Shown piece by piece: positions 3,608 to 34,816 of a stretch of 42,967 nucleotides of DNA. A program made the position numbers and the translations under genes. The stretch's first letter is position 1, and the number at the start of each line of letters is the position of its first letter. The DNA lies in NCBI GenBank assembly GCA_016215705.1, contig JACRIR010000248.1, positions 1 through 42,967 on the forward strand. The letters are read 5' to 3'. The notes beneath the pieces are model-generated. The model made no database searches, was not told the DNA's origin, and saw only the letters and a program-made list of their open reading frames with translations. The stretch is from Candidatus Poribacteria bacterium (GTDB taxonomy: Bacteria; Abyssobacteria; SURF-5).

Positions 3608-3666
3608 GCGCCTTCCGAATAAATCGGCGCCCACGAATAGCGCAATGAATTGCGCCCCACAGATTA

Positions 3667-4902: not shown

Positions 4903-5212
4903 TTTCCTTTTCCTCCAAATGTTAGTTTTCACTGATCACGATGTAATTCACAGAACCACTATTCGTTCGGCGATAATCCCACCTCCTCCCGCATAAGAAG
5001 GGGAAAAGATGAAAGGAACAAGGCGAAAGGGAGATTCTTCGCTTCGCTCAGAATGACATTAGGGGTCATACCCTCGCTTCATCTTTCTTGCGCAATTGAC
5101 CACAAGCCCAGCGTGGTCAGGCGCTCCTAATGGTGTTAGAATTTGCATTGTTACCCTTCGTGCGGGCGACTCACCGAGTCGCCCCTATGTTTGTTCTTCA
5201 GTCCAAGATCGG
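4903..5212. other. Intergenic region with three repeat types
   Basis: No gene seen. It contains a GGCGAAAGG-type purine repeat (about 4999-5031), directly abutting a GATTCTTCGCTTCGCTCAGAATGAC motif (about 5033-5057) that recurs inverted near 14054-14078, and a GGGCGACTC/GAGTCGCCC palindrome (5164-5184). Confidence 0.6.
5164..5184. repeat. GGGCGACTC/GAGTCGCCC palindrome (family P2)
   Basis: 9-bp arms (5164-5172, 5176-5184) with a 3-nt loop, followed by CCTATG. A related copy with core CGACTCGCGAGTCG lies at 41743-41756. Confidence 0.7.
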
Positions 5213-7746: not shown

Positions 7747-8106
7747 TCAACAGAAGGATTCAGATGTTCGCGGGCATATGGGAATCCGCGCGGAGGCGTG
7801 GAGAGGCGGCCGCGCCTCCAGCACATGAAACATGTATTCTTTTCTCTTGTGCATGGTGAGAACCAGGACTTTCACTCCCGGCTTGCTCATTTTGATTTGG
7901 CGGGTCGCTTCGATTCCGCCGAGTTTGGGCATGGAAATATCGAGTATGACCATTTCCGGTGTCGCGCCCTTCAATATTTCAAGAAGCTCGAGACCGTCGC
8001 CTGCCTCCTCCGTCACGACCATGTTATCCGACCCATCGATAATTTTCTTTAATCCGCGCCTGAGCAGGATGTGATCGTCAGCCAGTATGATGCGGTATGG
8101 ATTCAT
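7747..8106 (-). pseudogene. Truncated NarL/FixJ response regulator (receiver domain only)
   Basis: The 119-residue product has a normal receiver start, the acidic pair D10/D11, the phospho-acceptor D56 (VILDISMP) and LVLTMHKRKEYMFHVLEA. It matches the intact regulator at 18281-18946 until residue 98, then turns into unrelated RPPLHASARIP and stops. The rest of the receiver and the whole LuxR-type HTH are missing. The break coincides with a GGAGGCG/CGCCTCC palindrome (7792-7798 with 7813-7819). The ATG at 8106 has GGAGG at good spacing and overlaps the kinase gene by 29 nt, so the pair was once a normal operon. It may be dead, or may act as a phosphate sink without DNA binding. Confidence 0.85.
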
Positions 8107-9079: not shown

Positions 9080-9201
9080 ACACAACAAAGAAGCTCATTC
9101 ACGGTCCTGCCGTCTGCAATGCCGCAGACGTGGTCATGCACTGAGAATGATGCGTGGCTTCCGACCCTTGACCTTCGACTTTGCGCTCTTTGTGTTTCCG
9201 C

Positions 9202-12087
9202 CTATTCCTGGAACTGGTCTACAACGCTCTGGAGCGGCGCATAGCCTGCCCACGTGCGGCCGTATTGGCCTATGGCCGGGATTTGCATCACCCGCTCGCA
9301 CTGTCTGAAGCCGCCGAGTCCGATGACATCACAGTCGCCGCTGATGAGTGTTTCGTCTCCCTTCGCGCCGTTCGGGACAAACAACTGTGGATGATCGAAC
9401 GGCGCCGACTCGTCCTTCACGCGCTCGTCGGTGAGCGCAAGCATGAAGGCAACGAGAGCATCCTTTTGGGCATCGGTCAAATTGAGTTCATTGATATCCG
9501 GGTCAAGGTCATCGATGTTCTCATCGTGGAAGTCGCCGCCCCGGTCATAGAAATCCACTACTTGTCTTATGGTGGCCGCTCCGCCGTTGTGGAAGTAGGG
9601 CGGCGTCAACTCGAGATTGCGGAGGCCGGGAACCTTAAACGCGCCATCGCGATTTACTCTGTCCGGCGGGTTGGACTGACCGGCCGGCAGGTTCGGGACA
9701 AACCGGGCGAGTTCGGGCGGCAGGAGGCCGTCGTCCTTCATCATCGCCAGTTCCGCGAATGAGAGCGGGAACCCGAACGGGTCGCTTCCACCTCGGCCGA
9801 GGTCTTCCTCACTTGGCCTGACACCGATGTTGTACATTCCATCGTCATAAAACGCGCGACCCACGGCCATGGTCATCAATTCGATGGGTCTCACGGACCC
9901 AGGGGGCAGCGGCAGGATTTGCCCACGGACTTCACCGTCCGGGTGAGTAGCGGAATGAACGTCGACGTATAGTGAGCCGTTATTCATCGCGTTTATTACA
10001 TCATTGAAGTTCGCAATTCCGGGTGCCGGAATGAGGTCGTCCAAGCCAACGGCGCCGATCAGGGGGCTCCCGAAGGCTCCCGAGGTTAGTTCGAAAATGG
10101 CGGGGCCGTTCTCGCCGGGCAGACCCGAATGAACATGGGCTCCCTCAAGATCGGCAATATTGCTGACATCGAGCCGGAAATCGATTGTTCTGATCGCCGG
10201 GTTAATAGTCAGGTCAGCGAGGCCGCTTCCGGTCGTGCTCACAGGCGGCGCTACTTGCGCGCCGTTCATGGTTGCCTGGAAGTTCGGAATATCAAGGAGC
10301 AACTGGCCGCGGATTTCACCTGCCCGCCTGGTTAGGGTGCGCACATTGACGTATGTGTTGCCTGCGATCATCGCGTCGAGCGCCTGGTCAAAAGTGGCAA
10401 GGCCGCCGGCGGGAATGAAATCAGCCGTAGTCAACGTGCCGGTCAACAGTCCGGTAAAATCCGCGCGAGAGAGAGTGAATATGACCGGACCGTTTTCGTT
10501 GGCAGCGCCGACATGAATGTGCGCGCCTGTTATGTCTCTGATATTCTGCACCTGAAGGTCGAAGATAATACTCTCCCGGAGAGGAGTGATTGCGACTAAG
10601 GCGCTTCCGCTCGCGCTCGTTTGGACGGGTGGAACTTCCTGGTCTCCGAACAAACCCGCCACCAGGTCAATCGCCTGGGGACCAATCACCTGGCCCAAGA
10701 TTCCCGAGACGGCGTGATTCGTGAATTCCGGTCCTCGATGGCAGTTAAAGCACTTACCCTGACCGTTAAATATTCGAAGTCCTTCCTGCTCTTGCGCGGT
10801 AAGCGCCGTGGTGTCCCCCAGCGTGAAGCGGTCGAAGGGGGTGTCGTCCGAGACGAGCGTCGATTCATACATCTGCAGCGCCAATCCGAAGAAAAGGGAG
10901 AAGTTAGCTTCCATTTGCGTGAACTCGCCGGCTTGCAGCGGTCGCTTCGGGCGCGCCATGATGCGCGGAATACCGTTCGCAAGTTGGAATCGTCTCGGCT
11001 CTCCGGCGGTAGCGACGTTTGCAGATGTGGCTTTGTTCGAGAATGTGAGTATCTGGGTTGTATTGTTCCAATACTTGGGCTGAAACGCGGCCTGGATCAA
11101 TTCGGTGTAGGTGACATTGAGTCCTCGTTGGCCGGTCGCCCTGCCGCGCGAGTCCGTCGTAGCATTTGAAAAACTGCCCAATGCGCTGTCGAGAGGGTGG
11201 ACAAGCTGCTTGGCGAGAGGCTGTAATGAAAACATTTTCTTGCCGAGATCCGCAAACGTGCGGCCTGCGAACGACATCTCGAAGTCGCTCAGCGGCGGGC
11301 CGACAGCCTGAGAGGCAAGGCTCGAGTTTTCCAGCCGAACACTTTCTTCCTCGAGAACGCCATTGTTATTGACAAATACGCCATTCAGCGTATCGGATGG
11401 GCCAAAAGGGTTCACTCCGTTGAAGATGTTGTTGGCGCGGCCATCCCAAAAGTTCGTGAAATTGAAGACAGCATTGATCACGGTCGGTGTATTCCGGGGC
11501 TCGACGCGCCGTATGGTGACGCCTCCGACGTTGAAGACAGGGTCGGCCAGCGGAGTCCCGATGTCCGTAGAATTCCCTGGAGTGATTCCAACAAAGTCGT
11601 GGAGGAACACGCCTTGTGAGGACGAGACGTCGTTGCTGTCGGAGAGCAACTCCGAGAACCTGTTGTCCGGGTCCGCGAGTTTATGAAACGGGAAGTCTGC
11701 GATGTTCAAAACATGATTCGGGCCGCCGATCTGAAAAGTCTGATCGCCGGCGGGAAGTCCCGGCGACAGTTGGTTCTTGCCGCGGCGGCCGTCGGCTCCC
11801 GCTGCGAAATGGCAACTCGCGCACGCCTGGACGCCGTCGCTGCCGACCTGCATGTCCCAGTACAATGCTTTGCCCAGGACAAACGCGACATTGCGGTCAC
11901 GAATGAAGTCACCGAGATTCGCCGGCTCGGGTATAGGAACCTGCGAGAGAGATTGAGAGGATGCTATCCCCGAGAGGAAAGCCGTCAGAACTGCGAATGC
12001 GATTATGAGTACGCCGACGGGCTTTGCGTCAAGAGATAATTGAGAACGCATCCTATTTTCCTTCTTTGTTTTTGCGATGCACAACAT
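9202..12087 (-). CDS. Diheme cytochrome c peroxidase/MauG-like protein with two CHRD domains
   Basis: The protein has 961 residues, with AGGAGG 5 nt before the ATG at 12087; an internal ATG at residue 13 is an alternative. A hydrophobic signal segment lies at about 24-45 (VGVLIIAFAVLTAFLSGIASS). Heme motifs are CASCH (89-93) and CFNCH (446-450), with NFWDGRA (212-218) between them. The CHRD domains (about 481-597 and 608-726) are the best preserved in the window: both keep HxHxG (HIHVG, HVHSG), ENGPVIF or ENGPAIF, and GEIRGQ or GEVRGQ endings. The C-terminus has LRNLELTPPYFHNGG. It is the last gene of module 2, downstream of the peroxidase at 12703-13947, but has its own candidate promoter at 12201-12234. 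A peroxidase-type enzyme with an extracellular binding insert is likely; the substrate is unknown. Confidence 0.9.
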   Translation of the reverse strand: MLCIAKTKKENRMRSQLSLDAKPVGVLIIAFAVLTAFLSGIASSQSLSQVPIPEPANLGDFIRDRNVAFVLGKALYWDMQVGSDGVQACASCHFAAGADGRRGKNQLSPGLPAGDQTFQIGGPNHVLNIADFPFHKLADPDNRFSELLSDSNDVSSSQGVFLHDFVGITPGNSTDIGTPLADPVFNVGGVTIRRVEPRNTPTVINAVFNFTNFWDGRANNIFNGVNPFGPSDTLNGVFVNNNGVLEEESVRLENSSLASQAVGPPLSDFEMSFAGRTFADLGKKMFSLQPLAKQLVHPLDSALGSFSNATTDSRGRATGQRGLNVTYTELIQAAFQPKYWNNTTQILTFSNKATSANVATAGEPRRFQLANGIPRIMARPKRPLQAGEFTQMEANFSLFFGLALQMYESTLVSDDTPFDRFTLGDTTALTAQEQEGLRIFNGQGKCFNCHRGPEFTNHAVSGILGQVIGPQAIDLVAGLFGDQEVPPVQTSASGSALVAITPLRESIIFDLQVQNIRDITGAHIHVGAANENGPVIFTLSRADFTGLLTGTLTTADFIPAGGLATFDQALDAMIAGNTYVNVRTLTRRAGEIRGQLLLDIPNFQATMNGAQVAPPVSTTGSGLADLTINPAIRTIDFRLDVSNIADLEGAHVHSGLPGENGPAIFELTSGAFGSPLIGAVGLDDLIPAPGIANFNDVINAMNNGSLYVDVHSATHPDGEVRGQILPLPPGSVRPIELMTMAVGRAFYDDGMYNIGVRPSEEDLGRGGSDPFGFPLSFAELAMMKDDGLLPPELARFVPNLPAGQSNPPDRVNRDGAFKVPGLRNLELTPPYFHNGGAATIRQVVDFYDRGGDFHDENIDDLDPDINELNLTDAQKDALVAFMLALTDERVKDESAPFDHPQLFVPNGAKGDETLISGDCDVIGLGGFRQCERVMQIPAIGQYGRTWAGYAPLQSVVDQFQE

Positions 12088-12234: not shown

Positions 12235-12512
12235 TTTGCGATAGGAAGGAATACATATGTGGTTAAGTCGAAGGTCGGAAGAGTACGGTTTATGGTTTAT
12301 GGTTCATGGTTTGCGGGAAGAAGTGATGAGGAACAGATTACGAGAGTGAAGAGAGAAGAAGTTTGGGGTCCGGGGTTTGGGGTTTGGATTCTCTATAAAT
12401 GGGGGTGAGGAAGCTGTCTCGTGGTCATGGATGCAATGCGAGCGCGCAGCACGCCGTGCCCCCACGGCCCATTAGATAGAAATCCCCTGGAATCCATAAA
12501 TAGTGGCGGCAG

Positions 12513-12551
12513 AAAATGGGGGACACGATGCCGCATCGTGTCCCCCATTTT
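12513..12551. repeat. P1 palindrome, 18-bp perfect stem
   Basis: 12513-12530 pairs perfectly with 12534-12551, loop CCG. The outer arms AAAATG/CATTTT differ from other copies yet remain complementary. Confidence 0.9.
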
Positions 12552-12702
12552 CGTATCCCTCTCTGCAAATGAGGGCGAGAGAAAATATAATCCACATACG
12601 ATTCTTGGCCGCAGTTTACCGGATGTCTCTCACATCCTGGTCTTGCTCCCTTCTGCCGTTTCGTTCGCAGCGCATTCTTGGCCACAGTTTGTCGAATGGC
12701 TC

Positions 12703-13947: not shown

Positions 13948-14394
13948 GGTGTTTTCTCCTTTTCCTCTCGATAACCGGTTTACGGTCCACGGTTTGCGGT
14001 CTGCGGTCTGCGGTCTACACGGCATGTCGCCCAAAAGGGATAGACTATTTGTCATTCTGAGCGAAGCGAAGAATCTCCTCCGGGATGCAGAAATTTGCAG
14101 CAAAATGTGAGAGTCTTCGTCATTTGGGTACGACCCTTTGCTCCTTAGAATGACAATCCCGATTCGGCTATAAACCCGAGTCTCATTCGGGTAACGAGCA
14201 ACGCAGTTCGCGGTTGGGGAAAAGCGGGGACGCGATGTCACATCATGTTTCCGTTTTTCCCGGGAATCTGAACCAGACAGCTCTGCACAGAACATTGAGA
14301 AAACATCTCGTCTGAAATTGTGCGAATAAGGACAGCCCCGAAGTACGAAAAATCGGGGACACCATACGGCATGGTGTCCCCAGTTCTCTGTTTG
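13948..14394. other. Intergenic region of repeats
   Basis: No gene. It holds GGTTTACGGTCCACGG/GGTCTGCGGTCTGCGG-type simple repeats (about 13976-14018), a TCATTCTGAGCGAAGCGAAG motif (about 14054-14073, inverted relative to 5033-5057), a decayed P1 palindrome (14225-14253) and a good P1 palindrome (14355-14381). Confidence 0.6.
14355..14381. repeat. P1 palindrome, GGGGACACCAT form
   Basis: An 11-bp perfect stem (14355-14365 with 14371-14381). It lies just downstream of the multicopper-oxidase-like gene at 14395-15852, but no T-run follows on the minus strand. Confidence 0.8.
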
Positions 14395-15852: not shown

Positions 15853-15919
15853 ATGCTTTTTCCTTTCTTGAGAGCGCAGATTGCTGCGCCTGTACGGGCA
15901 ATTGCACTCGGATTCGTCC

Positions 15920-15958
15920 GGAATCGGGGACATGATGAGACATCATGTCCCCGATTCC
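15920..15958. repeat. P1 palindrome, 18-bp perfect stem, GGGGACATGATG form
   Basis: 15920-15937 pairs with 15941-15958 around AGA. The core change from CACG to CATG is compensated on the opposite arm. It sits between the two multicopper-oxidase-like genes, where a transcript would form a strong hairpin. Confidence 0.9.
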
Positions 15959-15966
15959 GTGGCTCA

Positions 15967-17592: not shown

Positions 17593-17768
17593 AACTGCCT
17601 CCATCTTTGAGGGACCGGTCCGAGCTTCGGGTCCGTCCCTGCCCCAATTAGTGACCTCCGACATTTCTTGAGCGACAAACCCCCACTTCAGGTTTGTGCT
17701 TGAAGCCGATATCGAGCTTTAGGTGAATCCTCCGCGCATGCCCACCCGTGTCACCACCTCCCAAAAGA

Positions 17769-17801
17769 TAGGCGAAAGGCGAAAGGAACAAGGCGAAAGG
17801 G
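17769..17801 (+). repeat. F1 repeat, solo TAGGCGAAAGG arm
   Basis: It begins TAGGCGAAAGGCGAAAGG and ends AGGCGAAAGGG, like the left arms of the four-helix-bundle elements, but has no attached gene and no inverted partner. Confidence 0.75.
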
Positions 17802-18946: not shown

Positions 18947-19001
18947 TATCTCAGCCTCCTTTTCTCGGTTTTCGCTTCGCAAATTCCGCAAAATATCCTC
19001 G

Positions 19002-19040
19002 GAAAGTGGGGACACGATGCCGCATCGTGTCCCCACTTTC
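19002..19040. repeat. P1 palindrome, 19-bp perfect stem
   Basis: 19002-19020 pairs perfectly with 19022-19040 around one base. It lies between the kinase and regulator genes; the next copy begins 16 nt further on. Confidence 0.92.
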
Positions 19041-19055
19041 TCCAATGCCGTGTTC

Positions 19056-20732: not shown

Positions 20733-23633
20733 TTATGGTTGAAACGGGTTGAATATCGGACCCAGCGGCGGGAGGCCGGCGGCGGGCCGACCGCCTGCGC
20801 CGACCGGCGGAATCCGTAGGATTCCTTCGCACTGTTTGAAACCACCGATGCGGAACAATCCGCAATCGCCGATAATCTGTGTTTCGTCTCCTCTCGCGCC
20901 ATTGGGCACGAATATTTCCGGATGGTCGAACGGCGCTATCTCATTGCGCACGCGATCGTCGGTAAGCGCCAACAGGAATGAGACCAGGGCGTTTTTCCTT
21001 TCCGCCGTCATGTTGGGGATAACGGCTATGAACGGCGACAGATTGTCGATATTCTCGTCGCGGAAGTTTCCCCCGCGCGTGTAGAAATCCACTGACTGCC
21101 TCACGGTTGCCATGCCGCCGTCCCGGTTATAGGGGCCGGTCAGCTCGACATTGCGAAGGGTCGGCGTCTTGATGGCGCCGTCAACAGCGACCCTGTCGAG
21201 GTCGCACGGAGTCCTGCAAGGCAGGTCCGGCGTATATTGCGCGATTTCGGGCGGCAGCAATCCCTGACTCTTGAGGAGGGCGCGGCGAGAGAATGAGAGC
21301 GGATAGCCGAACGGGTCGGTCCCGCCTCTGCCGATGTCCTCGAAAGTCGGTCTCACTGCGATATTGTAATAGCCAGTATCGTAGAAGGCCTCGCCCACAG
21401 TCATTGCCATTCGCTCGATGGCAGCTTCTGCTGCCAGCGCCAGCGGCCCGCGAATCTCGCCCTCGGGATGGGCGGCGGTTTGCACGACGACATAGGTCTT
21501 TCCGCTTATGATCGCGTCAATTACTTCGGCCATACTGGCCGCTCCAGCAGTCGGGATAAGGTTGGCTTCGCTAAGAGTTCCGGCAAACGGACTCACGAAA
21601 GCCGTGTTCGCGAGGACGAAGATGGCAGGTCCGTTTTCACCGGGCAGGCCAAGATGCATGGTTGCGCCGGTAACGCCGGTTATGTTTTTTGTTCTGAGTC
21701 CGTAAGAAATGAGTTGTTTGTCCGCGTCGATAGTGACGATAGCGTTGCCGGTCGCGGCGGTAGTAACAGGAGGAACGATCCGGTCGCCAAGCAGGACGGA
21801 ATCGAAAGTCAAGAGGGTGTCATTCAGTAGATGGCCGCGTATCTCGCCTGCCGGATGGGCGGCGGTGGCAATGTTGACATAGGTGTCGCCATTCTTCATC
21901 GCATTGATCGCATCGGCAAGGGTGGCGATGCCGGGGGCCGGAATGAGGTCAGTCTGAGTCAACGTCCCCGTCAATCGGGTAATGAAGCCCGTATTCGTAA
22001 GAACGAAGATGACGGGCCCGTTTTCTGTCGTAGAGCCGAGATGGACAGTTGCGCCGGTGACGCCGGCTATGTTTGCCGCCTCGATCTCGAACGCAATCTG
22101 AGTCAGCGCAGCATCAAATATGAGGCCGGCTTTCCCGCTGGCGGCAGTCGCAACGGGAGGCACTTCCTGTTGGCCGCTCATGTTCGCGATCACCCCCGGC
22201 GGCTCCAGGATCAGGCCTGCCGTGGCCGAGACTGAAGCGAGAGTGAATTCAGGACCGCCGTGGCAGTTTATGCACCTGCCGTCAAACAAGAAGATGTCGA
22301 GACCTTCGAGTTGCTGTGCGGTCAGCGCCGTAGTATCTCCTTCTTGATACTTGTCGAACGGCGTGTTATCCGAGACGAGGGTGCTCTCATACATTTGGAT
22401 GGCTAGGCCGAAGAATAGAGAGAAGTTGGCTTCCATTTGCGTATATTCGTTAGAGGCGAGCGGGCGGGCGGGGCGTCGCACAACTTGCCGTATTCCATCT
22501 CCATATCGGAACGAGCGGGGGTCTTGCGTTTCGGGGCGGTGGATATCTTCCGTGCCGGGTGCAAATCTGATCATCTGGCTGGTGTTCTGCCAGTATTCCG
22601 GTCTGAAAGCGGTTGTAATCAGGTGGCGGTACGTGACATTGAGCCCGCGCTGTCCCTTAACTTTTCCCTGCGCATCCAGGAAGGCGCTGGAGTAGATGCC
22701 CAAGAAGCTGTCGAGGGGATGAACCAACTGTTTTGCAAGCGGCCTGAGCAGCAGCATTTTCTTTCCGATATCGGCAAAGGGGCGACCCGTGAAAGACATC
22801 TCGAAGTCGCTCATAGGGGGACCGACGGCCTGTGAGGCGAGGCTTGAGTTGGGAATTCGCACAAGGCGCTCCTGCAACGTTCCATTCACATTCACGAATA
22901 CGCCGTCGGTCAGGTCTGACGGTCCGAACGGATTAACGCCATTGAACACTTGATTGGCGCGCCCATTCATAAAATTTTCAAAATTGAAGACGGCATTGAT
23001 TACCGTGGGAGCATTTCGCGGCTCGACACGGCGAAGGTTGACGCCATCGAGGTTGAATACCGGATCAAAGATCGGAAAGCCTGATTCGATTGAGCCACCG
23101 GGTCGAATAGCGGTGAAATTGTGAAGGAGGACACCCTGTGACGAAACGATATCGTTGCTGTCCGAAATCACGGTTGAATACTGATCATCCGGATTTGACA
23201 ACTTATGGAAAGGGAAATCACTAAACTGCAAAGTCTGGTTGGGCAGTCCGGTCTGAAAAGTTTCGTCGCCCGCGAGAAGTCCGGGGTTGAGTTGGTTTTT
23301 GAGGCGATTATCCGCCCCCGCGTGGAAATGGCAACTCGCGCACGCCGCTATGCCGTCGCTGCCGACCTGCATATCCCAGTAGAGGGCTTTGCCCAGCGCT
23401 ATGGCTGCGCTTTCATTCTGAACAAAGTCAGCAAGATTGGGCGGTTTCGGAACAGGAATTGTTTTCAGCGACGGAGGAGCGAATGGGTGTGTAGGGAAGT
23501 CAAAGCCGGAAACCACGCATGCCAGGATTATGGTTATTGACAATAGAATCCACGGTTCTCTTTCATTCCGGCCGGATGATGGGATTTGTTCACTTTGCGC
23601 AAGCGGGCTGCCCTTCTTAGCTTCGTTCCTCAT
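20733..23633 (-). CDS. Diheme cytochrome c peroxidase/MauG-like protein with two CHRD domains, partly degenerate signatures
   Basis: The protein has 966 residues from the ATG at 23633, with a GGAGGAGAGG about 11 nt upstream. A hydrophobic leader is at about 28-43 (PWILLSITIILACVVSG). Heme motifs are CASCH (98-102) and CINCH (453-457). CHRD-like domains span about 485-602 and 614-731 and end in AGEIRGH and EGEIRGP. It is closest to 150-2891; both begin DFPT(N/H)PFAP after the leader. Two family signatures are altered: NFWDGRA is NFMNGRA (220-226), and PYFHNGG is PYNRDGG near the C-terminus. The heme sites are intact, so binding is likely but activity may differ. It follows the secreted protein at 23892-25145, as the paralogue pair does in module 1. 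Confidence 0.88.
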   Translation of the reverse strand: MRNEAKKGSPLAQSEQIPSSGRNEREPWILLSITIILACVVSGFDFPTHPFAPPSLKTIPVPKPPNLADFVQNESAAIALGKALYWDMQVGSDGIAACASCHFHAGADNRLKNQLNPGLLAGDETFQTGLPNQTLQFSDFPFHKLSNPDDQYSTVISDSNDIVSSQGVLLHNFTAIRPGGSIESGFPIFDPVFNLDGVNLRRVEPRNAPTVINAVFNFENFMNGRANQVFNGVNPFGPSDLTDGVFVNVNGTLQERLVRIPNSSLASQAVGPPMSDFEMSFTGRPFADIGKKMLLLRPLAKQLVHPLDSFLGIYSSAFLDAQGKVKGQRGLNVTYRHLITTAFRPEYWQNTSQMIRFAPGTEDIHRPETQDPRSFRYGDGIRQVVRRPARPLASNEYTQMEANFSLFFGLAIQMYESTLVSDNTPFDKYQEGDTTALTAQQLEGLDIFLFDGRCINCHGGPEFTLASVSATAGLILEPPGVIANMSGQQEVPPVATAASGKAGLIFDAALTQIAFEIEAANIAGVTGATVHLGSTTENGPVIFVLTNTGFITRLTGTLTQTDLIPAPGIATLADAINAMKNGDTYVNIATAAHPAGEIRGHLLNDTLLTFDSVLLGDRIVPPVTTAATGNAIVTIDADKQLISYGLRTKNITGVTGATMHLGLPGENGPAIFVLANTAFVSPFAGTLSEANLIPTAGAASMAEVIDAIISGKTYVVVQTAAHPEGEIRGPLALAAEAAIERMAMTVGEAFYDTGYYNIAVRPTFEDIGRGGTDPFGYPLSFSRRALLKSQGLLPPEIAQYTPDLPCRTPCDLDRVAVDGAIKTPTLRNVELTGPYNRDGGMATVRQSVDFYTRGGNFRDENIDNLSPFIAVIPNMTAERKNALVSFLLALTDDRVRNEIAPFDHPEIFVPNGARGDETQIIGDCGLFRIGGFKQCEGILRIPPVGAGGRPAAGLPPLGPIFNPFQP

Positions 23634-26667: not shown

Positions 26668-27068
26668 GGCTGCCAGAACTCCTTCCCATACAGGCGGCCC
26701 CCAGAACCGTATCTTTACCTAATATGGCTTACTTTTGAAAAAGGTTCAAGTAATTGACGCTTCTGATTGGGTCATTTGCAGAAGAACAACGGAAGTCATT
26801 CCTACGAAATCCGGAATCCGGACACATTGGCCACAAGAAGTGGATTCCTGCTTTCGCAGGAATGACAAGAAGAAAAGCGGGAATGAGAAGAAGAAGGGTG
26901 GGAACTACAAGCAGAAGGGCGTGGTTGACATTGCATTGGAGAGCAGATAATATTTTCGTAGGGGCAGTTAATCGGGGACGTCATGTGACATGACGCATAA
27001 TTGGGGACACGATGCAGCATCGTGTCCCCAATTATGCATCCTTATTCCAGGAGGTTCGAGGTAAACTC
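26668..27068. other. Divergent intergenic region with two palindrome types
   Basis: It separates the minus-strand redox cluster from the plus-strand genes. It holds an ATTCCTGC/GCAGGAAT hairpin within a longer GTCATTCC-type inverted repeat (core 26844-26863), a half P1 copy (about 26974-26995), and a 21-bp-stem P1 palindrome (26995-27037). No gene seen. Confidence 0.65.
26995..27037. repeat. P1 palindrome, 21-bp perfect stem
   Basis: 26995-27015 pairs perfectly with 27017-27037 around one base. It ends 31 nt before the start codon of the AAA ATPase gene and would form a stable hairpin in its leader. Confidence 0.93.
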
Positions 27069-27956
27069 ATGGCTGAAAAAGACGTGGAGAAGTTTGGCGG
27101 AGTGGAGCGGTTTTTCGAGGAGCATTTCTTCGCTGAGGAGCCGTATTATTTGCCGATTCGAGATGAGGTGGAGATATTCCGAGCGGCGTTCCTGATGAGA
27201 TTGCCGCTCCTCCTGAAGGGGCCGACCGGCTGCGGCAAGACGCGGTTCGTCGAGTACATGGCCTACACGCTGCAGCAGGAGCGCATCCGGCAGGGTCACG
27301 AATCGCAAGATGAGGTTTCTTCCCCGCTCATCACAGTGGCTTGCCACGAAGATTTGAGCGCAAGTGATCTGGTGGGCCGGTATCTGCTCAAGGGCGAGGA
27401 GACCGTTTGGATCGATGGGCCTCTGACGCGCGCGGTCAAGGTCGGAGCTATCTGTTATCTGGACGAAATCGTCGAGGCGCGCAAGGACACGACCGTCCTC
27501 ATTCATCCGCTGGCTGATTACCGCAGGATATTGCCGGTCGAGAAGAAGGGACAAATGATACAGGCGCACGAAAACTTCCTGCTTGTCATTTCCTATAATC
27601 CGGGCTATCAGAGTTCGCTCAAGAATCTCAAGCACAGCACGCGCCAGCGTTTTATCGCAATAGATTTCGATTATCCGCCGAGGGAGGCGGAAGCCCGAAT
27701 CATTGCGCATGAGAGCGGTGTGGACGCGCGCGCATCGGAGGAACTGGCGCTGCTCGGGGAAAAGGTAAGGCGCTTGCGCGACCACGGCCTCGAAGAGGGC
27801 GTGAGCACACGCCTGCTGATATACGCCGGCAAGTTGATGGTTTCGGGCATCGCCTCGCGGCGGGCATGCGAACTGGCCGTGGCCAAGGCGATAACGGATG
27901 ATCATGAGATTGAGCGAGCGGTCGAGGAAATGATCAGGAGTATATTTGAAAAATGA
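27069..27956 (+). CDS. MoxR-type AAA+ ATPase of the CbbQ/NirQ/NorQ family
   Basis: The protein has 295 residues from the ATG at 27069, with GAGG about 8 nt upstream. Walker A is GPTGCGKT (51-58) and Walker B ICYLDE (128-133). [21 protein letters not shown] is the family's signature block after Walker B. This family works with a VWA-domain partner as a chaperone that activates or loads cofactors into an enzyme (nitric oxide reductase for NorQ-NorD, Rubisco for CbbQ-CbbO). Its VWA partner is the gene at 28456-30828, but a four-helix-bundle element has been inserted between them. No norBC or Rubisco gene lies in the window, so the client is unknown. Confidence 0.93.
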
Positions 27957-28408
27957 TAGGCGAAAGGGCAAAGGCGAAAGGGAGAGCAATGGGGAAGCGG
28001 GAGAGGTTTGAGGACTTGATTGTTTGGCAGAAGAGCATGGACTTGGCTGTGACCGTCTATCACATCTGCCAAAAAGGGGCTTTGTCAAAGGACTGGGGGC
28101 TCCGAGACCAATTGCGGAGAGCTGCGATATCTGTTCCCGCAAACATCGCAGAGGGTTACGAGCGGGGCAGCCGCAAAGAGTACATCCAATTCTTGAAAAT
28201 CGCGAAGGGCTCCATCGGTGAGCTCAGATGTCTTTTTCAGCTTGCGAATCGTGTGGAGCACATTGAAAGCCAGACTGCTACGCCACTCATCGAAAATTCT
28301 GCGGAGGTATCGAGAATTTTGAAAGCAATGATGCGATCACTCGAAGAGAAGAAGGATTGATCCTTTTCTTGATTACCCTTTCGCCTTTGCCCTTTCGCCT
28401 TTCGCCTC
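27957..28408 (+). mobile_element. Four-helix-bundle element with perfect 25-nt inverted repeats
   Basis: The left arm 27958-27982 (AGGCGAAAGGGCAAAGGC, continuing GAAAGGG) is perfectly inverted at 28376-28400; a further TTCGCCT extends the right arm. The arms enclose one gene of 123 codons. The left arm follows the stop codon of the upstream AAA ATPase without a gap, and its last bases give the GGGAG that serves as ribosome binding site for the enclosed gene. A shorter copy, with the same gene start, the same right arm and an internal deletion, lies at 31414-31579. No transposase is visible, so movement would need help in trans. Confidence 0.75.
27989..28360 (+). CDS. Four-helix bundle protein (S23/IVS-type)
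   Basis: The product has 123 residues from the ATG at 27989 and starts MGKRERFEDLIVWQKSMDL. The RFEDLIVWQKSM opening, the RDQLRRAAISVPANIAEGYERGS block and a final helix (EVSRILKAMMRSLEEK) are hallmarks of the four-helix bundle family first seen as proteins encoded in 23S rRNA intervening sequences; the Avd protein of diversity-generating retroelements has the same fold. The molecular role is not established; nucleic-acid binding is the usual suggestion. Here the gene is bounded by inverted repeats and interrupts a conserved AAA-VWA gene pair, which points to mobility. Neither an rRNA gene nor a reverse transcriptase is near. Confidence 0.92.
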   Translation: MGKRERFEDLIVWQKSMDLAVTVYHICQKGALSKDWGLRDQLRRAAISVPANIAEGYERGSRKEYIQFLKIAKGSIGELRCLFQLANRVEHIESQTATPLIENSAEVSRILKAMMRSLEEKKD

Positions 28409-28455
28409 TTGCGATTCGCGGCTTGTGACCCGTTGCGGTCAGAAAGGCTTTTGAA

Positions 28456-30828
28456 TTGGATAAGTCGCCCCCGACAGTGCGGCTTGCGGAAGTCAGCCGG
28501 CTGTTGCAACTGTATTGCGCTGCGGCCACCGGAAAACCGTTGCGCATAAGGAGCACCGAAGAAGCGCCGCGCGAGTTTGTGCGTGAGGGCCATCACCTGC
28601 CGCTCACCGATGGGAAGACCATTTACCTGCCGAATTTTATAGAGAAACACCTATCGCGCGAGGAAAATTTTGCAGAGTATAAAGTGTATGCGGCGCACCA
28701 GGCGGGGTATATCGAGTTCGGCACGTTCGAGCTGGATATTGATGTTGTAATCGATCATCCGGTCTTCAGCGCATTTGAGGAACAGGCGGCAACAGTCGAC
28801 CCTGAGGCGATAGTCTCGCATTACGATCTGTTCTTCATGCTTTTCAAGGAGTCTCAACTGGCTCGCGACATTTTCTTTGCAATCGAGGACGGGCGTGTTG
28901 ATTACAGGCTGCGAGAGATGTATCGAGGGCTGGCGGCCGACATGGAAAAGGTCGCTCGCGCTTCGCTCGAAGGAAGAGCGGTGGCAGGCTCGCTTCCGCT
29001 CAGAGAAGCCCTCGTGGAAGCGCTGACCCGCTTATCCATCACCGGAAAGATTGACGAATCGTTTCTGGAAAAGTTCATGGTCGTTCCCATGCGAATGAAT
29101 TCGCACTTACAGCGAGAAGAGATCGACGAATCACTCCCCGAAAAGCTATTGCCTCTTTACCGGCGCATCTGCGGGCTGTTCGCGCGTGTGCTGAGCCACA
29201 GCGCAACCGTGACCGATTCCGCAGTTGCGACCGCGCGCGTGTATTTATTGCTCGGCTCTCTTCCGAATGTTTCATTTGGCTCGCCGTTCCTTGATTCGGC
29301 AACAAGAGGGACCGGCCATGCGGAGTCCGAGAGAATGCAGCATGGTATCCCTGCCGGGCGGGGCGTTCCGGAAAGTGAACCACTCCCCTACCGAGCCTCT
29401 CAGCCCGTAGCTTTCCGCGGGCAGACAAGACCGGAACTCGTTCAGCTTGAGAATGCGATAGAACTCTTAAAGGAAGCGGTCGTGACTCAGGAGGATTCCG
29501 GCGCAGCGCTCACGCACGACTTGCTCGAGATGCTCTTGAAGCGGGTGGTAAAAATTAAGATAAGTCAAATGACCGCGAAAGAACTTGCCGAGACATCCGG
29601 CCTGTTTATTACCGACCTCCGTGGCGTCCTGCAGGAGAAAATCGGCGAACTGTCTCCCGATGCGCGGAAGAGACTTGCAAAGCTATTAGACCGCGCTTCA
29701 GTGGCAAAGGGTAAGACCGAAGATTCGTCTCGTGTTTTCTTCTATGACGAGTGGGATTATCTTAGCGGTGACTATCGGCCGCGTTGGTGCCGGCTGCGCG
29801 AGATTTCGCTCGAGGGGGAATCGAGCGCGATTGTCTCCCAAATCCAGAAAGAGCAGGCAGCGTTGATAGCAGCCGTTAGGCGAAGTTTCCAGCGGATACG
29901 TCCCGAAATGCTCCGAAAGGTGAAACGGCTTCGAAGCGGCGAAGAGATCGAGTTGAACGACGCGATCGAAGCGGTGCTCGATCGTCGAGCCGGTCTCACT
30001 CCGTCGGAGAGGGTCTACCAGAAGCGTGACCGGCGCATGCGCGATGTCGCAACGGTCTTTCTCCTGGACTTGAGCGCATCGACCGACGAGTGGATTGTGG
30101 AAGAGCCCCTGCATGAGAGCGGCGGGCCCCGCCACGGCGGGGCATCACGCTCCGCGCTTTTCGGGTATTTCTCGCTGGATGCCGGCTCGGAGCGCGCGGC
30201 CATGAGGGGGAACACCCCGGCGAATTCTCCGCCAAACGGCGCAACCCCGGGAGGCGCGGTCTCGAGCGGCGCGCGCGATTTCTCACCACCGGATAGAGCA
30301 ATGCGCGTGATTGACATCGAGCGTGAGGCTCTTGTTGTCATGGCTGAAGCACTCGAGAGCCTGGGGGACATGTACGCGATATACGGTTTCTCCGGTTACG
30401 GCCGCGAAAATGTGGAATTCTTCGTGATCAAGGATTTTTCGGAAAAATTCTCCGAGCGGGCGCGTCGCCGCATCGGCGCAATCAAGCCGCAGAAAAGCAC
30501 GCGTATGGGACCGGCTATCCGGCACGCAATGCAAAAGCTTGTCGCAACTGATTGCCGACTCAAAGCGCTCATACTTTTGAGCGACGGATATCCACAGGAT
30601 TACGACTACGGACCTGACAGAACGAGCCGGGACTACGGCCTCCATGACACGACGGTGGCTCTGCGGGAAGCGCGCAAGAAGAAGGTGCACACATTCTGTG
30701 TGACGGTCGATCAGGCCGGCAACGACTATTTGCGCGCCATGTGCGGCGGGGAGAATTACCTCGTTGTGAAGAGACCGAGCGCGCTGCCGAAGATATTGCC
30801 GCGAGTGTATAGGGGATTGACAATCTGA
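28456..30828 (+). CDS. NorD/CbbO-like VWA-domain protein
   Basis: The protein has 790 residues. The start is a TTG at 28456 with AAAGG about 8 nt upstream. The N-terminal two-thirds is the helical NorD-type region. The C-terminal VWA domain has the metal-binding MIDAS residues DLSAST (538-543), the Thr in TRMGPAIRH (about 684) and the Asp in LLSDGYPQD (about 708), followed by the family block GLHDTTVALREAR. It is the partner of the ATPase at 27069-27956. Oddities: a Gly/Pro/Ser-rich stretch of about 65 residues (about 551-615, DNA 30108-30300, with a GCCCCGCC/GGCGGGGC hairpin at 30126-30143) interrupts the VWA domain right after the first MIDAS motif. A P3 palindrome at 29090-29105 encodes RMNSH. 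The MIDAS set remains complete. Confidence 0.9.
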   Translation: MDKSPPTVRLAEVSRLLQLYCAAATGKPLRIRSTEEAPREFVREGHHLPLTDGKTIYLPNFIEKHLSREENFAEYKVYAAHQAGYIEFGTFELDIDVVIDHPVFSAFEEQAATVDPEAIVSHYDLFFMLFKESQLARDIFFAIEDGRVDYRLREMYRGLAADMEKVARASLEGRAVAGSLPLREALVEALTRLSITGKIDESFLEKFMVVPMRMNSHLQREEIDESLPEKLLPLYRRICGLFARVLSHSATVTDSAVATARVYLLLGSLPNVSFGSPFLDSATRGTGHAESERMQHGIPAGRGVPESEPLPYRASQPVAFRGQTRPELVQLENAIELLKEAVVTQEDSGAALTHDLLEMLLKRVVKIKISQMTAKELAETSGLFITDLRGVLQEKIGELSPDARKRLAKLLDRASVAKGKTEDSSRVFFYDEWDYLSGDYRPRWCRLREISLEGESSAIVSQIQKEQAALIAAVRRSFQRIRPEMLRKVKRLRSGEEIELNDAIEAVLDRRAGLTPSERVYQKRDRRMRDVATVFLLDLSASTDEWIVEEPLHESGGPRHGGASRSALFGYFSLDAGSERAAMRGNTPANSPPNGATPGGAVSSGARDFSPPDRAMRVIDIEREALVVMAEALESLGDMYAIYGFSGYGRENVEFFVIKDFSEKFSERARRRIGAIKPQKSTRMGPAIRHAMQKLVATDCRLKALILLSDGYPQDYDYGPDRTSRDYGLHDTTVALREARKKKVHTFCVTVDQAGNDYLRAMCGGENYLVVKRPSALPKILPRVYRGLTI

Positions 30829-30987
30829 ATATTTTGGATTTTCGATTTTGCATTTTGGATTTGAAGAAAACCTTTGTGTTGGGCAGTTCGAAACATTGTT
30901 CGCATATTTGAGGTGGAGCGATCTGCCAGGATACTCTTCAATAAGCTAGTTCTTTGCGCTCTTTGGGTCTTTGCGGTTTAATTGCTT

Positions 30988-31416
30988 ATGAATGCTGAAG
31001 GAATCGTGCTGGCGGTGGGCGCGGTCATACGGGACCGGGAAGGCCGAATACTGCTTGTGCGGCATCGCCGCGAAAGAGGGGGATTCTGGCAGGGAAAGTG
31101 GATTTGTCCGGGCGGGAAACTGGCGCCGGGTGAGACACTTGCCGAGGGCGCGCTGCGCGAGGTTCTCGAGGAGACACATCTCCGTATCAGGCTCGGGCGG
31201 ATTCTGGCGCCTTTTGAAAGAATCGTGCGGGAGAATGGCGGCGTGACGCTGCATGTGGTTTACGTGGATTTTCTGGCTGATTTGATAGAGGGCGACCTTG
31301 AGCCGGATGATGACGTCGGTGAGGCCGAATGGTGGGACGACGAGACGCTGCGCGAGCGGTGGGATGAATTACATGAGGACACGCAGCGGCTGCTGTCGCA
31401 GGCAGACATAACATAG
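30988..31416 (+). CDS. NUDIX hydrolase
   Basis: The product has 142 residues from the ATG at 30988; an in-frame TTG at 30982 is possible, and no clear ribosome binding site is seen. The NUDIX box is complete: G43-x5-E49-x7-R57-E58-V-L-E61-E62 in GGKLAPGETLAEGALREVLEE. This gives a metal-dependent pyrophosphohydrolase of nucleoside diphosphate derivatives; the N-terminal layout (AVGAVIRDREGRILLVRHRR, FWQGKWICPGG) is that of MutT/8-oxo-dGTPase-like members, but the substrate cannot be told. Its TAG stop codon is the first three bases of the deleted four-helix-bundle element. Confidence 0.9.
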   Translation: MNAEGIVLAVGAVIRDREGRILLVRHRRERGGFWQGKWICPGGKLAPGETLAEGALREVLEETHLRIRLGRILAPFERIVRENGGVTLHVVYVDFLADLIEGDLEPDDDVGEAEWWDDETLRERWDELHEDTQRLLSQADIT

Positions 31417-31579
31417 GCGAAAGGCGAAAGGGAGAACGATGGGGAAACGGAAGCGCTTCGAGGACTTGATTGTTTGGCAGAACAGCATGGATCTGGCTGC
31501 GAACGTCTATCGGCTCTGCCAAAGAGAGGCCTCTTTCTTGGTTCGCCCTTTCGCCTTTGCCCTTTCGCCTTTCGCCTAT
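31414..31579 (+). mobile_element. Internally deleted copy of the four-helix-bundle element (miniature form)
   Basis: The left arm begins TAGGCGAAAGGCGAAAGGG (31414-31432). The right arm 31546-31570 is identical to 28376-28400, and the shared sequence continues TTCGCCT. Between them lie the first 31 or so codons of the four-helix-bundle gene (about 85 percent identical to 27989-28080), joined straight to the right arm. Total length is about 166 bp against 452 bp for the full copy. It sits between the NUDIX and coaE genes; its left end is the stop codon of the first, and it ends about 11 nt before the ribosome binding site of the second. Confidence 0.75.
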
Positions 31580-31609
31580 TTGCAACGGAAAGGAGTTGAG
31601 CTTGACTGA
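31439..31609 (+). pseudogene. Truncated four-helix bundle gene in the miniature element
   Basis: The 56-codon frame starts MGKRKRFEDLIVWQNSMDL, aligned with the intact product at 27989-28360, and departs after LCQREAS. The remainder (RPFAFALSPFAY) is translated right-arm repeat. Helices 2-4 are gone, so a normal bundle cannot form. The frame overlaps the coaE start by a few bases. Confidence 0.8.
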
Positions 31610-32213
31610 AGCCAGAATGAAACCTGTGGTGGGGTTGACGGGCGGGATAGGCGCCGGTAAGAGCACCGTCTCGCAAATCTTCTCGCGTCTGGGGGCCGTG
31701 ATCATAGACGCGGACAAGGTGGGCCACCGAATCATACTGCCCGGAGGAAAGGCGTACGACGCCGTTATCCGCGAGTTTGGCCGAGAGATTGTCGAGCCTG
31801 ACGGCACAATCAGCCGCAAGCGACTTGGAGCAATCGTGTTTTCCGATCATGAGAAACTGAAGCGGCTCGATTCCATCATGCACCCGATGATGGCCGAGAC
31901 CATGGCCGAAGAGATCGCCTCACTAAGAAGAATAGCGGCCGCGGACTCCGTGATTGTTCTTGAGGCGGCAGTCCTGATCGAGGCCGGATGGGACAGCCTT
32001 GTCGACCAGGTTTGGGTGGTTGTTTCGGACACGGAACGCGTCGTCGAGAGGCTGGCCGTGAGAAACAAGCTCTCCCGTGAGGAGGTCATGAAACGCATGG
32101 GGGCGCAGATTTCCGATGAAGAAAGGTTGAAACACGCCGACGTCGTGATCACGAACCACGGCTCGTTCGCGGAGATGGAGAAACAGGTGCTCGCGGCATG
32201 GGAAAAACTATAG
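31602..32213 (+). CDS. coaE: Dephospho-CoA kinase
   Basis: The product has 203 residues from a TTG at 31602, which has AAAGGAG 6 nt upstream; an ATG at 31617 is the alternative. It catalyses the last step of coenzyme A synthesis, ATP-dependent phosphorylation of dephospho-CoA. The P-loop is GGIGAGKST (14-22), followed by the family motifs IDADKVGH, LGAIVFSDHEKLKRLDSIMHP and VLIEAGWDSLVDQVWVV. Length is typical (about 200). The upstream miniature element ends just before the ribosome binding site, so the gene probably depends on transcription across the element. Its stop codon touches another F1 repeat. Confidence 0.95.
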   Translation: MTEARMKPVVGLTGGIGAGKSTVSQIFSRLGAVIIDADKVGHRIILPGGKAYDAVIREFGREIVEPDGTISRKRLGAIVFSDHEKLKRLDSIMHPMMAETMAEEIASLRRIAAADSVIVLEAAVLIEAGWDSLVDQVWVVVSDTERVVERLAVRNKLSREEVMKRMGAQISDEERLKHADVVITNHGSFAEMEKQVLAAWEKL

Positions 32214-32246
32214 AAGGCGAAAGACGAAAGGAGCAAGGCGAAAGGG
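32211..32246 (+). repeat. F1 repeat arm starting at the coaE stop codon
   Basis: The TAG of coaE begins the repeat (TAGAAGGCGAAAGACGAAAGG, ending AGGCGAAAGGG). It is the third F1 copy in the window that abuts or contains a stop codon. Confidence 0.75.
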
Positions 32247-32476
32247 AAGAAGCGAGAATGAGGGAAAATGGGGAACAATGGGGGATTTAAGAAGCGCCAG
32301 CGAGACCGCCTCTTATAATTATCAAAAAGAAAAAGAAACTTTGGGAACACGAATGTCATCCCGCGAAACGCGGGACACAAGGCGCGAGACGAACTACACA
32401 AATGAAAAAGAAGAGTTGGATCACGAATGACGCCAATTATACGAATTGCAAATGAACGATAGAGAGGACTCTTGGG

Positions 32477-34816
32477 TTGGTGAATGAATCTTCGCGATGC
32501 AACAATAGGGTTGTCAGACGAATTCTCCGCATGATTGTGGGCCGAATTCTCCCCCCTCTCTTCGTGTTCCTGGCAAGCTTGACCGTCTATGTCTGCACGA
32601 TGCCGCCGGACATCGCCGCAGTCGGCTACGCCGCTGACACACTGAAGTTCCAATATATCGGCAAGGTTTTCGGCACGCCGCACTTCGGGTATCCCACCTA
32701 CATGTTCCTGAACATAATCGTCAGCCGGCTGCCTGTCTTCAATCTCGCATATCGGCTAAACCTGCTTTCCGCGGTGCTTGCTTCGGCGACACTCGTCGTG
32801 CTCTATTTCATAGTCTTGTCTGTCCTTGACAAGAGGAGATGCGGGGACCGTCCGGCAATTCGTCAGAAGGGCGCAGATTGCACCGCAAGGGCGCAGACCT
32901 ATCCCCATAATTCGGGGACACGATGCGGCATCGTGTCCCCGAATTATGGGGGCATCGTATCCCCGAATCATGGGAGGTCCAATCCACAAGCAGGCGCTCT
33001 CCAGTCAAACGGTCCACAGATGGACGATTCACAAGCAAGCGATGCGCAAACACTCCGAATGCAAACAGACAATTCATTGTCCGACAGGCTTATTGCCGTT
33101 GCGTGCGCCCTTCTGTTCGGGGTCACGTACACCTTCTGGGAGAATTCGATAATAGCCGAGGTGTATTCACTGCACACGCTGTTTATGTGCGGGGTGATGT
33201 TGCTGATGCTGCATTGGGAGGAAAGCCGAAGGCCGCTGTTCTATTACTTTGCATGTCTCGTATACGCTGTCAGCTTCGGGAATCATCTTGTCGGAATAAC
33301 GATGCTGCCCGCGCTGGTGTATTGGACTCTTGCGGTCGATCATACGATTCTGTTCAAGAAAAGGACATATCTCCTCATCGCATTATTCATCCTCCTCGGA
33401 ATGGCGCAATATGGATACGTGCTTGCGAGGTCGCGCCAGGTTCCACCGCAAGAGAAGGTCTTTCAGTATTGGCCCTATTTCGAGGACTTCGGCAAGACGC
33501 ATCTGGAGAGTTATGCGCGATCCGTTCCTGAACTGCTCAACGTGGTTTCGGGAGGAGGATGGAGAAACCGCCTCGCGCAGTATTCTCCGGCGAAGCCTGA
33601 TTTCAAAGATCGACTACCCTTGTTCTACAACCTCTTTCTTCTTCAGTACAGTCCCGCGGGTCTGATTCTTGGAGCAACTGGAATCGCCTTCTCATTTCTG
33701 AAGCGCCGCCGACGTGCGATCTTCTTTTCGCTGTTGTTGGCGGCGCACATGGCTTTCGTGGTGACATGGGGCGTGCCCGGAATAGACGTTCACGTTATCC
33801 CCGCGTATCTTATACTGGCCATATTCATCGCGCACAACGACAACTTCTTCCGGACGGCATGGGTCGAACAGCGTCCGGTCGTTCGCCGAATAGGACGGGC
33901 GTGCCTCGTGGCCCTGCTTGCCGCGCTCATAGTATTCTTGACTCTGACGCGTTATCGAAGGCTTGACCAGAGCAAGAATGTCTGGCTCGCGGATATGCTT
34001 GAAACTGCGATTCCGAGGATTCCGGACAACTCCATCATTTTCACGAACCATGTTTATGCGACCGCATTCTGGCAGAAGCTCTATGGCGAAGACGCCCGCC
34101 CCGGCGTCCGAATCACGGTACATCCCATCTGGACGATTTGCCGCGAAGATCTTGTTTATGCGCTCAGGCGCTACCAGAATGTGTTCTATTTCCTGGACGA
34201 ACCATACTGGGGGGCGCTTGCCGAAATGGGAATCGATTTTGAGATTCGGAACTTCTCGAGTCTAAGTCTGGGCAGCTTCCTTTCCGGATTCGAGCCCGGC
34301 GAAATCGTCGCCTCGTATGCGGTTGTCGAAGAGGAAGACACAGCACGCGAAGCGCCAACACCTCCCTTTCCTAACGGAGAGTCTGCACCCCCCTTTCTCA
34401 ACGGAAGATTTACGCCTCCCTTTCTTAACGGAAAGCCTGTACCCCCCTTTCGTGAAGGGGGGATGGGGGGATTTAGCATCCTCGGACTTCTTGAAAGGAA
34501 CGGAAGCATCCGTATTCTCATGACGACGCGTGGGGCTTTCTCCTTGAGGAAAGGCGCTGAGGTTGGGGGAATCAAGCTCCCTGTTGACATAAGAGTTGCG
34601 CCTGGCGAGACTATATATATTGATGGAGTAGATTGCTCTCGGTACAGGAAACGTAATAATCTGGTCGTGCTCGATCCTGTCAGTGGAAAAGTGAAAGCGA
34701 TGGTTTATGTGGATTGGATGCGCGGAACAGCCGTTGACCCCGCCTATGCGCTGCTGGTCAGAGGGACAAAGAGAGTGTCCCGTAATTGTGATTCCGAGGG
34801 CGCAATGACGGATTAA
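32477..34816 (+). CDS. DUF2723 (POMT/TMEM260-like) polytopic membrane protein with repeat insertions
   Basis: The protein has 779 residues from TTG 32477 (AGAGAGGA about 9 nt upstream); GTG 32480 is equivalent. The N-terminal part matches the DUF2723 pattern: MPPDIAAVGYAADT, HFGYPTYMFLN, LAYRLNLLSAV. Many membrane helices follow, with a soluble C-terminal part. Relatives look like GT-C glycosyltransferases of surface glycans or proteins. Three non-family segments are visible: a perfect P1 hairpin in frame (DNA 32903-32951, about residues 143-158, within a hydrophilic loop up to about 205); four 9-residue repeats beginning PPF (629-664); and a C-terminal end formed by a miniature-element end (34770-34789). 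All keep the frame open, so the protein tolerates them, or the gene is decaying. Confidence 0.85.
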   Translation: MVNESSRCNNRVVRRILRMIVGRILPPLFVFLASLTVYVCTMPPDIAAVGYAADTLKFQYIGKVFGTPHFGYPTYMFLNIIVSRLPVFNLAYRLNLLSAVLASATLVVLYFIVLSVLDKRRCGDRPAIRQKGADCTARAQTYPHNSGTRCGIVSPNYGGIVSPNHGRSNPQAGALQSNGPQMDDSQASDAQTLRMQTDNSLSDRLIAVACALLFGVTYTFWENSIIAEVYSLHTLFMCGVMLLMLHWEESRRPLFYYFACLVYAVSFGNHLVGITMLPALVYWTLAVDHTILFKKRTYLLIALFILLGMAQYGYVLARSRQVPPQEKVFQYWPYFEDFGKTHLESYARSVPELLNVVSGGGWRNRLAQYSPAKPDFKDRLPLFYNLFLLQYSPAGLILGATGIAFSFLKRRRRAIFFSLLLAAHMAFVVTWGVPGIDVHVIPAYLILAIFIAHNDNFFRTAWVEQRPVVRRIGRACLVALLAALIVFLTLTRYRRLDQSKNVWLADMLETAIPRIPDNSIIFTNHVYATAFWQKLYGEDARPGVRITVHPIWTICREDLVYALRRYQNVFYFLDEPYWGALAEMGIDFEIRNFSSLSLGSFLSGFEPGEIVASYAVVEEEDTAREAPTPPFPNGESAPPFLNGRFTPPFLNGKPVPPFREGGMGGFSILGLLERNGSIRILMTTRGAFSLRKGAEVGGIKLPVDIRVAPGETIYIDGVDCSRYRKRNNLVVLDPVSGKVKAMVYVDWMRGTAVDPAYALLVRGTKRVSRNCDSEGAMTD
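32903..32975. repeat. P1 palindrome, 24-bp perfect stem, inside a coding sequence
   Basis: 32903-32926 pairs perfectly with 32928-32951 around one base, the longest stem of the family in the window. A partial second copy follows (32953-32975). It is translated as NSGTRCGIVSPNYGG within the DUF2723 protein. Confidence 0.95.
34361..34468 (+). repeat. Four 27-bp tandem repeats in frame (PPF repeats)
   Basis: Units at 34361, 34388, 34415 and 34442 encode PPFPNGESA, PPFLNGRFT, PPFLNGKPV and PPFREGGMG. The last unit extends into GAAGGGGGGATGGGGGGATTT, the same type of sequence as 20554-20597 and 35190-35220. Confidence 0.9.
34770..34789. repeat. Solo end of the miniature element, at the 3' end of the DUF2723 gene
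   Basis: Twenty bases are identical to 20636-20655, the left end of the element at 20639-20726. The DUF2723 frame reads through it and stops 27 bases later. Confidence 0.7.

Follow-up and report, generated by a model that had tools for sequence, protein, structure and literature searches.

A 166-base intergenic spacer in a Candidatus Poribacteria genome as the probable gene-less derivative of a mobile element with inverted heptamer arms

Results

The DNA analysed here (the window) is a stretch of 42,967 nucleotides, contig C193 (JACRIR010000248.1) of a 5.47-Mb draft genome of Candidatus Poribacteria bacterium (GCA_016215705.1; G000). It holds two copies of a small element with inverted arms, both of which sit between protein genes and not inside an rRNA gene: a full copy at 27957-28409 and a deleted copy at 31414-31579, between a NUDIX gene and coaE. 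The arms are built from a degenerate 7-nt unit, GGCGAAA, and the window also carries unpaired arms. The features are as follows.

27957-27984, plus strand: full copy, left arm; the TGA stop (27954-27956) of a CbbQ-type AAA gene immediately precedes it
27989-28360, plus strand: full-length four-helix-bundle gene, 123 aa, PF05635 23S_rRNA_IVP / TIGR02436 (profile search)
28376-28409, minus strand: right arm of the full copy
31414-31433, plus strand: left arm of the deleted copy, TAGGCGAAAGGCGAAAGGGA, whose TAG is the NUDIX stop codon (sequence; inverted match to the right arm; stem in the fold)
31439-31530, plus strand: what is left of the beginning of the four-helix-bundle gene (ATG and about 30 codons; 85% identity to 27989-28080)
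31530-31545, plus strand: deletion junction and kept 3' leader (alignment, sequence reading)
31546-31579, minus strand: right arm of the deleted copy, a genome-wide repeat (BLAST, MAFFT)
32214-32246, plus strand: unpaired arm, directly after the coaE stop TAG (32211-32213)
17768-17801, plus strand: unpaired arm of the window-element family
4992-5032, plus strand: unpaired, diverged arm of the window-element family
2903-2943, plus strand: unpaired, diverged arm of the window-element family

The full copy has a single gene, of the PF05635 family, between the left arm TAGGCGAAAGGGCAAAGGCGAAAGGGA and the inverted right arm, and this coding parent contains no transposase. Its protein scores far above the curated cut-offs of both PF05635 (E 1.2e-34, 119.1 bits, cut-off 33.8) and TIGR02436 (E 3e-34, 117.5 bits, cut-off 24). 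Its relatives in the PDB are 2gsc (XCC0516) and 2rld, with five chains in each deposition; XCC0516 is said to be a pentamer. There is also a weak similarity to Avd, the accessory protein of diversity-generating retroelements (DGR; NF033474, E 0.0064, 16.8 bits), which lies below the equivalog cut-off of 80; no reverse transcriptase was seen among the neighbouring genes examined, and no DGR variable repeat was identified beside the element. Both copies fold better than all of their shuffles (z -4.2 and -3.6), as is expected of any long inverted repeat, and window positions 27000-33000 gave no Rfam match. Elsewhere in the window, four large paralogous ORFs (684-1012 aa) lie on the minus strand at 150-12087 and 20733-23633, with DNA stretches 62-75% identical, and a perfect 29-nt inverted repeat, GGAGATTCTTCGCTTCGCTCAGAATGACA, occurs at 5030-5058 and 14050-14078, as well as inside an arm pair on contig C265 (around 56290).

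The 166-base NUDIX-coaE spacer holds a remnant of such an arm-bounded element. From the full copy, the deleted one retains the left arm, the leader and the first ~30 codons, followed by the 3' end and right arm. With the full copy as query, a BLAST search of G000 gives matches at 31420-31530 (85% identity, 111 nt, E 1.3e-28) and at 31534-31580 (91%); in a MAFFT alignment the left arm, leader and ~30 codons of both copies are in register, and the right arm CCCTTTCGCCTTTGCCCTTTCGCCTTTCGCCT is identical at 32 of 32 positions (28376-28407 in the full copy, 31546-31577 in the deleted one). An earlier note on this DNA, made from the sequence alone, had described just this junction of a gene start to a right arm, and both methods confirm it. 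The interior loss that it put at about 290 bp is likewise real, with a corrected size of ~282 nt, roughly parent positions 28081-28362. The retained 3' part probably starts just past the parent stop codon, because CCTCTTTCTTGGTTCGCCC resembles the parent CCTTTTCTTGATTACCC.

The deleted copy fills the spacer exactly. The NUDIX stop TAG (31414-31416) forms the first letters of its left arm, the AAGGAG ribosome-binding site of coaE (31590) lies 10 nt past the end of its right arm, and the remnant reads as an ORF of 56 codons that crosses the right arm and enters the coaE start. A profile search with the first 30 codons of this ORF gives no significant match in Pfam and weak ones to the NCBIfam S23 models (TIGR02436 14.2 bits, below the cut-off of 24). 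Of these 30 codons 13 differ between the two copies, five of the 13 synonymously; hence the copies are old relatives and not recent duplicates, and most of their divergence may predate the deletion. Judged by the alignments, the deleted copy is a real internal-deletion derivative, far beyond chance. The same BLAST search found no other deleted copy with a gene start in G000.

The arms themselves are a genome-wide repeat. In G000 about 85 arm sites lie on 58 contigs; about 75 are unpaired, and of the pairs 5 are convergent and none is divergent. The 34-nt right-arm sequence recurs at 97-100% identity on C225, C251, C246, C265 and other contigs. Hence the 32-nt identity, on which the earlier note had relied to connect the two window copies, says little about a link between these two, and we rejected the shared arm as proof of their kinship. 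Nor do discrete full and deleted size classes, proposed as a sign of mobility, appear within G000: the five convergent GGCGAAA pairs comprise one full copy, one deleted copy and three with unrelated interiors. The other two clear PF05635 genes of the genome are also flanked by inverted arms, built from different units (GTTTGAC-like on C157; GATGAAT-like on C178, read by eye).

Repeats of this kind might have come about with no mobility at all. Simple repeats grow by slippage, and the heptamer arrays could be intergenic products of that process, with a gene that once lay between two of them and with 31414-31579 as its decayed ortholog or paralog. In keeping with this, single arms are the majority of arm sites in G000 and the deletion is unique within the genome. 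The spacer has no counterpart for comparison in G001 and G002, of the same family as the window, in which CoaE is 33-37% identical and has no NUDIX neighbour, so that NUDIX-coaE synteny is absent. The 5 to 0 ratio of convergent to divergent pairs argues against slippage, as do results from other genomes given below, and we regard this account as quite improbable.

We then scored the flanks of 102 PF05635 genes, most of them from 80 named GTDB genomes of many phyla, for inverted complementarity. For 58% of the genes, a fraction that is no family-wide estimate, given that they were chosen for their resemblance to the window protein and a conserved motif, the score lies above the 99th percentile of mismatched flanks. 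Among control ORFs of the same loci 1.5% of 131 pass the threshold, as do 12% of the PF05635 flanks in direct orientation. Inverted arms are also present at 21 of 27 PF05635 loci in a second set of viral contigs and plasmids, and about 40% of the sampled PF05635 genes have no significant arms within 350 nt. The arms are genome-specific degenerate tandem arrays, with a period of 7 in 44/58 loci and of 8 in 12/58, and the left arm is G-rich in 55/58. Inverted arrays that surround one and the same protein family across many phyla are not something slippage produces. Two candidate readings were rejected: carriage by phages, with no match among 50,697 phage records, and a near-identical pair on Calothrix brevissima plasmids as a recent move, given that both members lie within one conserved gene neighbourhood. 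One genome, G010, has an unusual head-to-head layout, with ~19 partial PF05635 matches on C2, C3, C7, C12 and C13, many of which are paired back to back in divergent orientation at distances below 200 nt.

The arms have a preferred place and strand. At 24 of 53 arm sites in G000 the G-rich strand comes just 3' of a co-directional stop codon, and at 3 the opposite is the case (p 5e-5). The left arm starts near a co-directional stop, mostly within ~15 nt, in 43/58 loci, and a convergent gene stands at the right arm in 19 (p 0.003). Survival in short operon spacers could explain the proximity to stop codons, although the orientation bias is not readily explained in this way.

Sites just 3' of stop codons, hairpin ends and dispersed single arms are also what a REP/RAYT or IS200/IS605-type system would leave, in which a Y1 transposase moves single-stranded DNA hairpins in trans. 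The window carries 7 copies of a REP-like palindrome distinct from the heptamer arms (for example GGGGACACGATGCGGCATCGTGTCCCC; 89-135, 12508-12554, 14344-14390, 15915-15961, 18997-19043, 26992-27038 and 32903-32949), and G000 has three matches to PF01797 (Y1/RAYT); from these palindromes and Y1 matches together, a REP/RAYT system is likely in this genome. As the mover of the armed elements it is highly improbable: their ends are tandem heptamer arrays and not a REP hairpin with a fixed tetranucleotide, and 15 of 34 carriers have no PF01797 match, among them 12 of the 13 Brucella carriers with the full element, for which reason we rejected Y1/RAYT as a general mover.

Two further explanations place the action at the RNA level. 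The element could be an RNA feature like the 23S rRNA intervening sequence (IVS), its arms acting as a transcript hairpin cut by RNase III, with mobility incidental or retro-mediated. Its anatomy equals that of the Coxiella IVS, the Avd similarity fits, and the G-rich arm strand of G000 reads in the sense direction immediately past stop codons (24 to 3). On the other side, the arm stems have no excess of G-U over A-C (61 vs 73, p 0.34), so that selection on an RNA hairpin of the sense strand is unsupported; the gene-less mini-elements and single arms are intergenic and not in rRNA; and the arm sequence is replaced wholesale from species to species. We hold this explanation to be unlikely, if worth keeping in mind. 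Somewhat less probable still is retro-mobility, in which a host reverse transcriptase, of the group II intron or DGR type, would copy the RNA of the element with the help of an Avd-like four-helix protein; the NF033474 match and the sense orientation of arm sites at stop codons speak for it, and we saw no poly-A tail or target-site duplication of the kind it would leave.

Orthologous sites with and without the element are found in two groups. Among 35 Brucella/Ochrobactrum genomes 13 carry it (L269-L281; ~460 bp), and in others the empty site is a ~13-bp spacer, CAACGTC TGA CCGGTTCCAC ATG (CAACGTCTGACCGGTTCCACATG). The Brucella element spans from arm to arm, beginning at the stop codon; no target-site duplication can be resolved between filled and empty sites, which are ~13-20% diverged. 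Within orthologous Brucella elements the two arms co-vary (matched 23.4 vs mismatched 21.2, p about 0.05 by permutation, uncorrected for relatedness). The same holds for Flavobacterium (16.1 vs 13.2, reached by 0 of 5000 permutations, again uncorrected for relatedness), where ~25 sampled species have the element at a site upstream of nadD and the gene is missing there from others, two of which (L408, L410) have gene-less hairpins at this site. Slippage does not make units that are present or absent at orthologous sites. Each of the two sites could reflect one old gain and vertical descent, or partly losses. PF05635 subfamilies that are not orthologous and differ in their arms (L291, L301) lie, in two Flavobacterium species, downstream of seemingly the same gene, a shared location that suggests an insertion hot spot.

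Gene-less forms of the element recur as well. In Brucella they are dispersed, with the structure [GGGGAATA]n-short loop-[CTCCCTTA]n; G078 has at least 7, including one at the orthologous site, in unrelated contexts, with identities of ~83-90% to the reference copy, for most of them ~85-90%. Dispersed hairpins with related loops are a further thing that slippage does not make. One locus, L305, looks by eye like a coding element reduced to its leader and 3' end, with the gene gone. The arms of L275, L280 and L281 contain AGGGCAGT, the octamer used in HOOF-Print VNTR typing of Brucella (PMC7589603, PMC9416531), which in L275 and L281 is the arm unit itself, and the loci typed in this way may be element arms. 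Internal deletions are found in two other genomes: in Flavobacterium L289 the first 33 domain residues are joined straight to an inverted right arm, an arrangement that, from its layout, is an independent parallel of the deleted copy in the window, and two loci of G056 have one and the same deletion, whose junction shows an overlap of 6 nt relative to the full copy. In G030 a truncated copy (L311) lies 1 kb from a full copy (L102; C4, 217-219 kb), with the left arm exactly shared and the other end of a different heptamer family, which suggests that it arose with arm recombination.

Some of these loci would also suit an exchange of cassettes, in which the arms recombine with resident arms, the sites stay in place while their cargo (the gene or a short loop) changes, and new sites seldom arise. 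At one Brucella site similar arms enclose different loops (L330/L331 vs L334/L337), the Flavobacterium nadD site has either the gene or a gene-less hairpin, and the truncated copy of G030 has one end from a second heptamer family. Such exchange, which we see as a minor possibility, leaves the first entry of arm pairs into 13-bp spacers unexplained.

Discussion

At the level of sequence comparison, these data show that the arms bound a unit occurring with or without the gene, that Brucella and Flavobacterium have orthologous sites with and without this unit, and that gene-less mini-elements sharing the arm unit have been amplified in Brucella. The contention of the earlier note that the arms, not the protein, define the unit is borne out by these other taxa and by G056, and not by G000 alone. 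It follows from the inverted arms (58% vs 1.5%), the present/absent sites, the multicopy gene-less hairpins and the deletions with the same junction.

We consider it likely that 31414-31579 is a deleted, gene-less derivative of a mobile element with inverted arrays of a 7-nt unit and a PF05635 gene as its sole gene, moved by a route in which a hairpin is recognised in trans. The paired arms would form a hairpin, in single-stranded DNA or RNA, that serves as the substrate, and the four-helix protein, a relative of Avd, would bind or chaperone it. The strand-transfer enzyme would be supplied from elsewhere and, at least in Brucella, would not be a Y1/HUH transposase. Internal deletions would yield gene-less passengers such as 31414-31579, and lone arms would expand and contract by slippage, leaving scattered single arrays.

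A broader and more tentative reading, a serious possibility that we stop short of calling likely, is that the S23/IVP proteins of PF05635 mark an undescribed, domain-wide class of elements with heptamer- or octamer-array ends, which move independently of Y1 transposases, the four-helix protein recognising the paired arms. Such elements could be the source of many repeats of this kind, among them the GGGAATC heptamers of Xanthomonas, the HOOF-Print octamer of Brucella and the heptamers of cyanobacteria, and the 23S rRNA IVS would be a special case that landed in rRNA. The origin of the latter has been called unclear (PMC4990558), and its ORF was once proposed to serve mobility (Ralph & McClelland 1993, as cited in PMC4990558). 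In Xanthomonas, 70-75 convergent inverted pairs per genome and no general association with mobile elements have been reported for GGGAATC (Rehm et al., PMC4692102); X. campestris ATCC 33913 has GGGAATC pairs as well as the protein XCC0516 (2gsc). Searches of the papers on heptamers and octamers (PMC4692102, PMC7589603, PMC9416531, PMC4679880) gave no link to S23 proteins, and in a literature search covering mainly open-access journal papers we found none tying S23, four-helix or IVP proteins to heptamer repeats; it turned up papers on the IVS and papers on heptamers, with nothing to join the two. If true, this reading would give one testable explanation for the role of S23/IVP proteins, the origin of the 23S rRNA IVS and the inverted heptamer repeats of unrelated bacteria, and possibly also for the octamer loci used in Brucella typing. 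It would also point to a type of bacterial mobile element with a changeable tandem unit, rather than a fixed sequence, at its ends.

Among known systems, the closest in anatomy is the 23S rRNA IVS of Leptospira and Coxiella, with inverted terminal repeats around a PF05635-type ORF, a length of ~430-460 nt and a patchy distribution; the Coxiella IVS is a 428-nt element with a 28-bp terminal inverted repeat and an S23 ORF, excised by RNase III (PMC4990558). However, elements of the window type lie between protein genes, their arms are tandem heptamer arrays that recur genome-wide, and gene-less derivatives exist. In this last respect they resemble MITEs, whose gene-less copies share inverted ends with a coding parent and arise by internal deletion, and they differ from MITEs in that the parent has no transposase and the ends are degenerate tandem arrays that vary between genomes; the number of gene-less copies is one in G000, many in Brucella and two loci in G056. 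With REP/RAYT systems they share dispersed intergenic hairpins near gene ends and a cognate protein gene, although that protein is a four-helix bundle and not a Y1 transposase, and Y1 genes are missing from many carriers. The four-helix protein has a weak family similarity to Avd of DGRs, and the GGGAATC repeats of Xanthomonas, AGGGCAGT of Brucella and the TAACTGA heptamer of Beggiatoaceae (PMC4679880) are alike in unit length and intergenic position. The window element is IVS-like and MITE-like, with a fair probability of belonging to a separate class.
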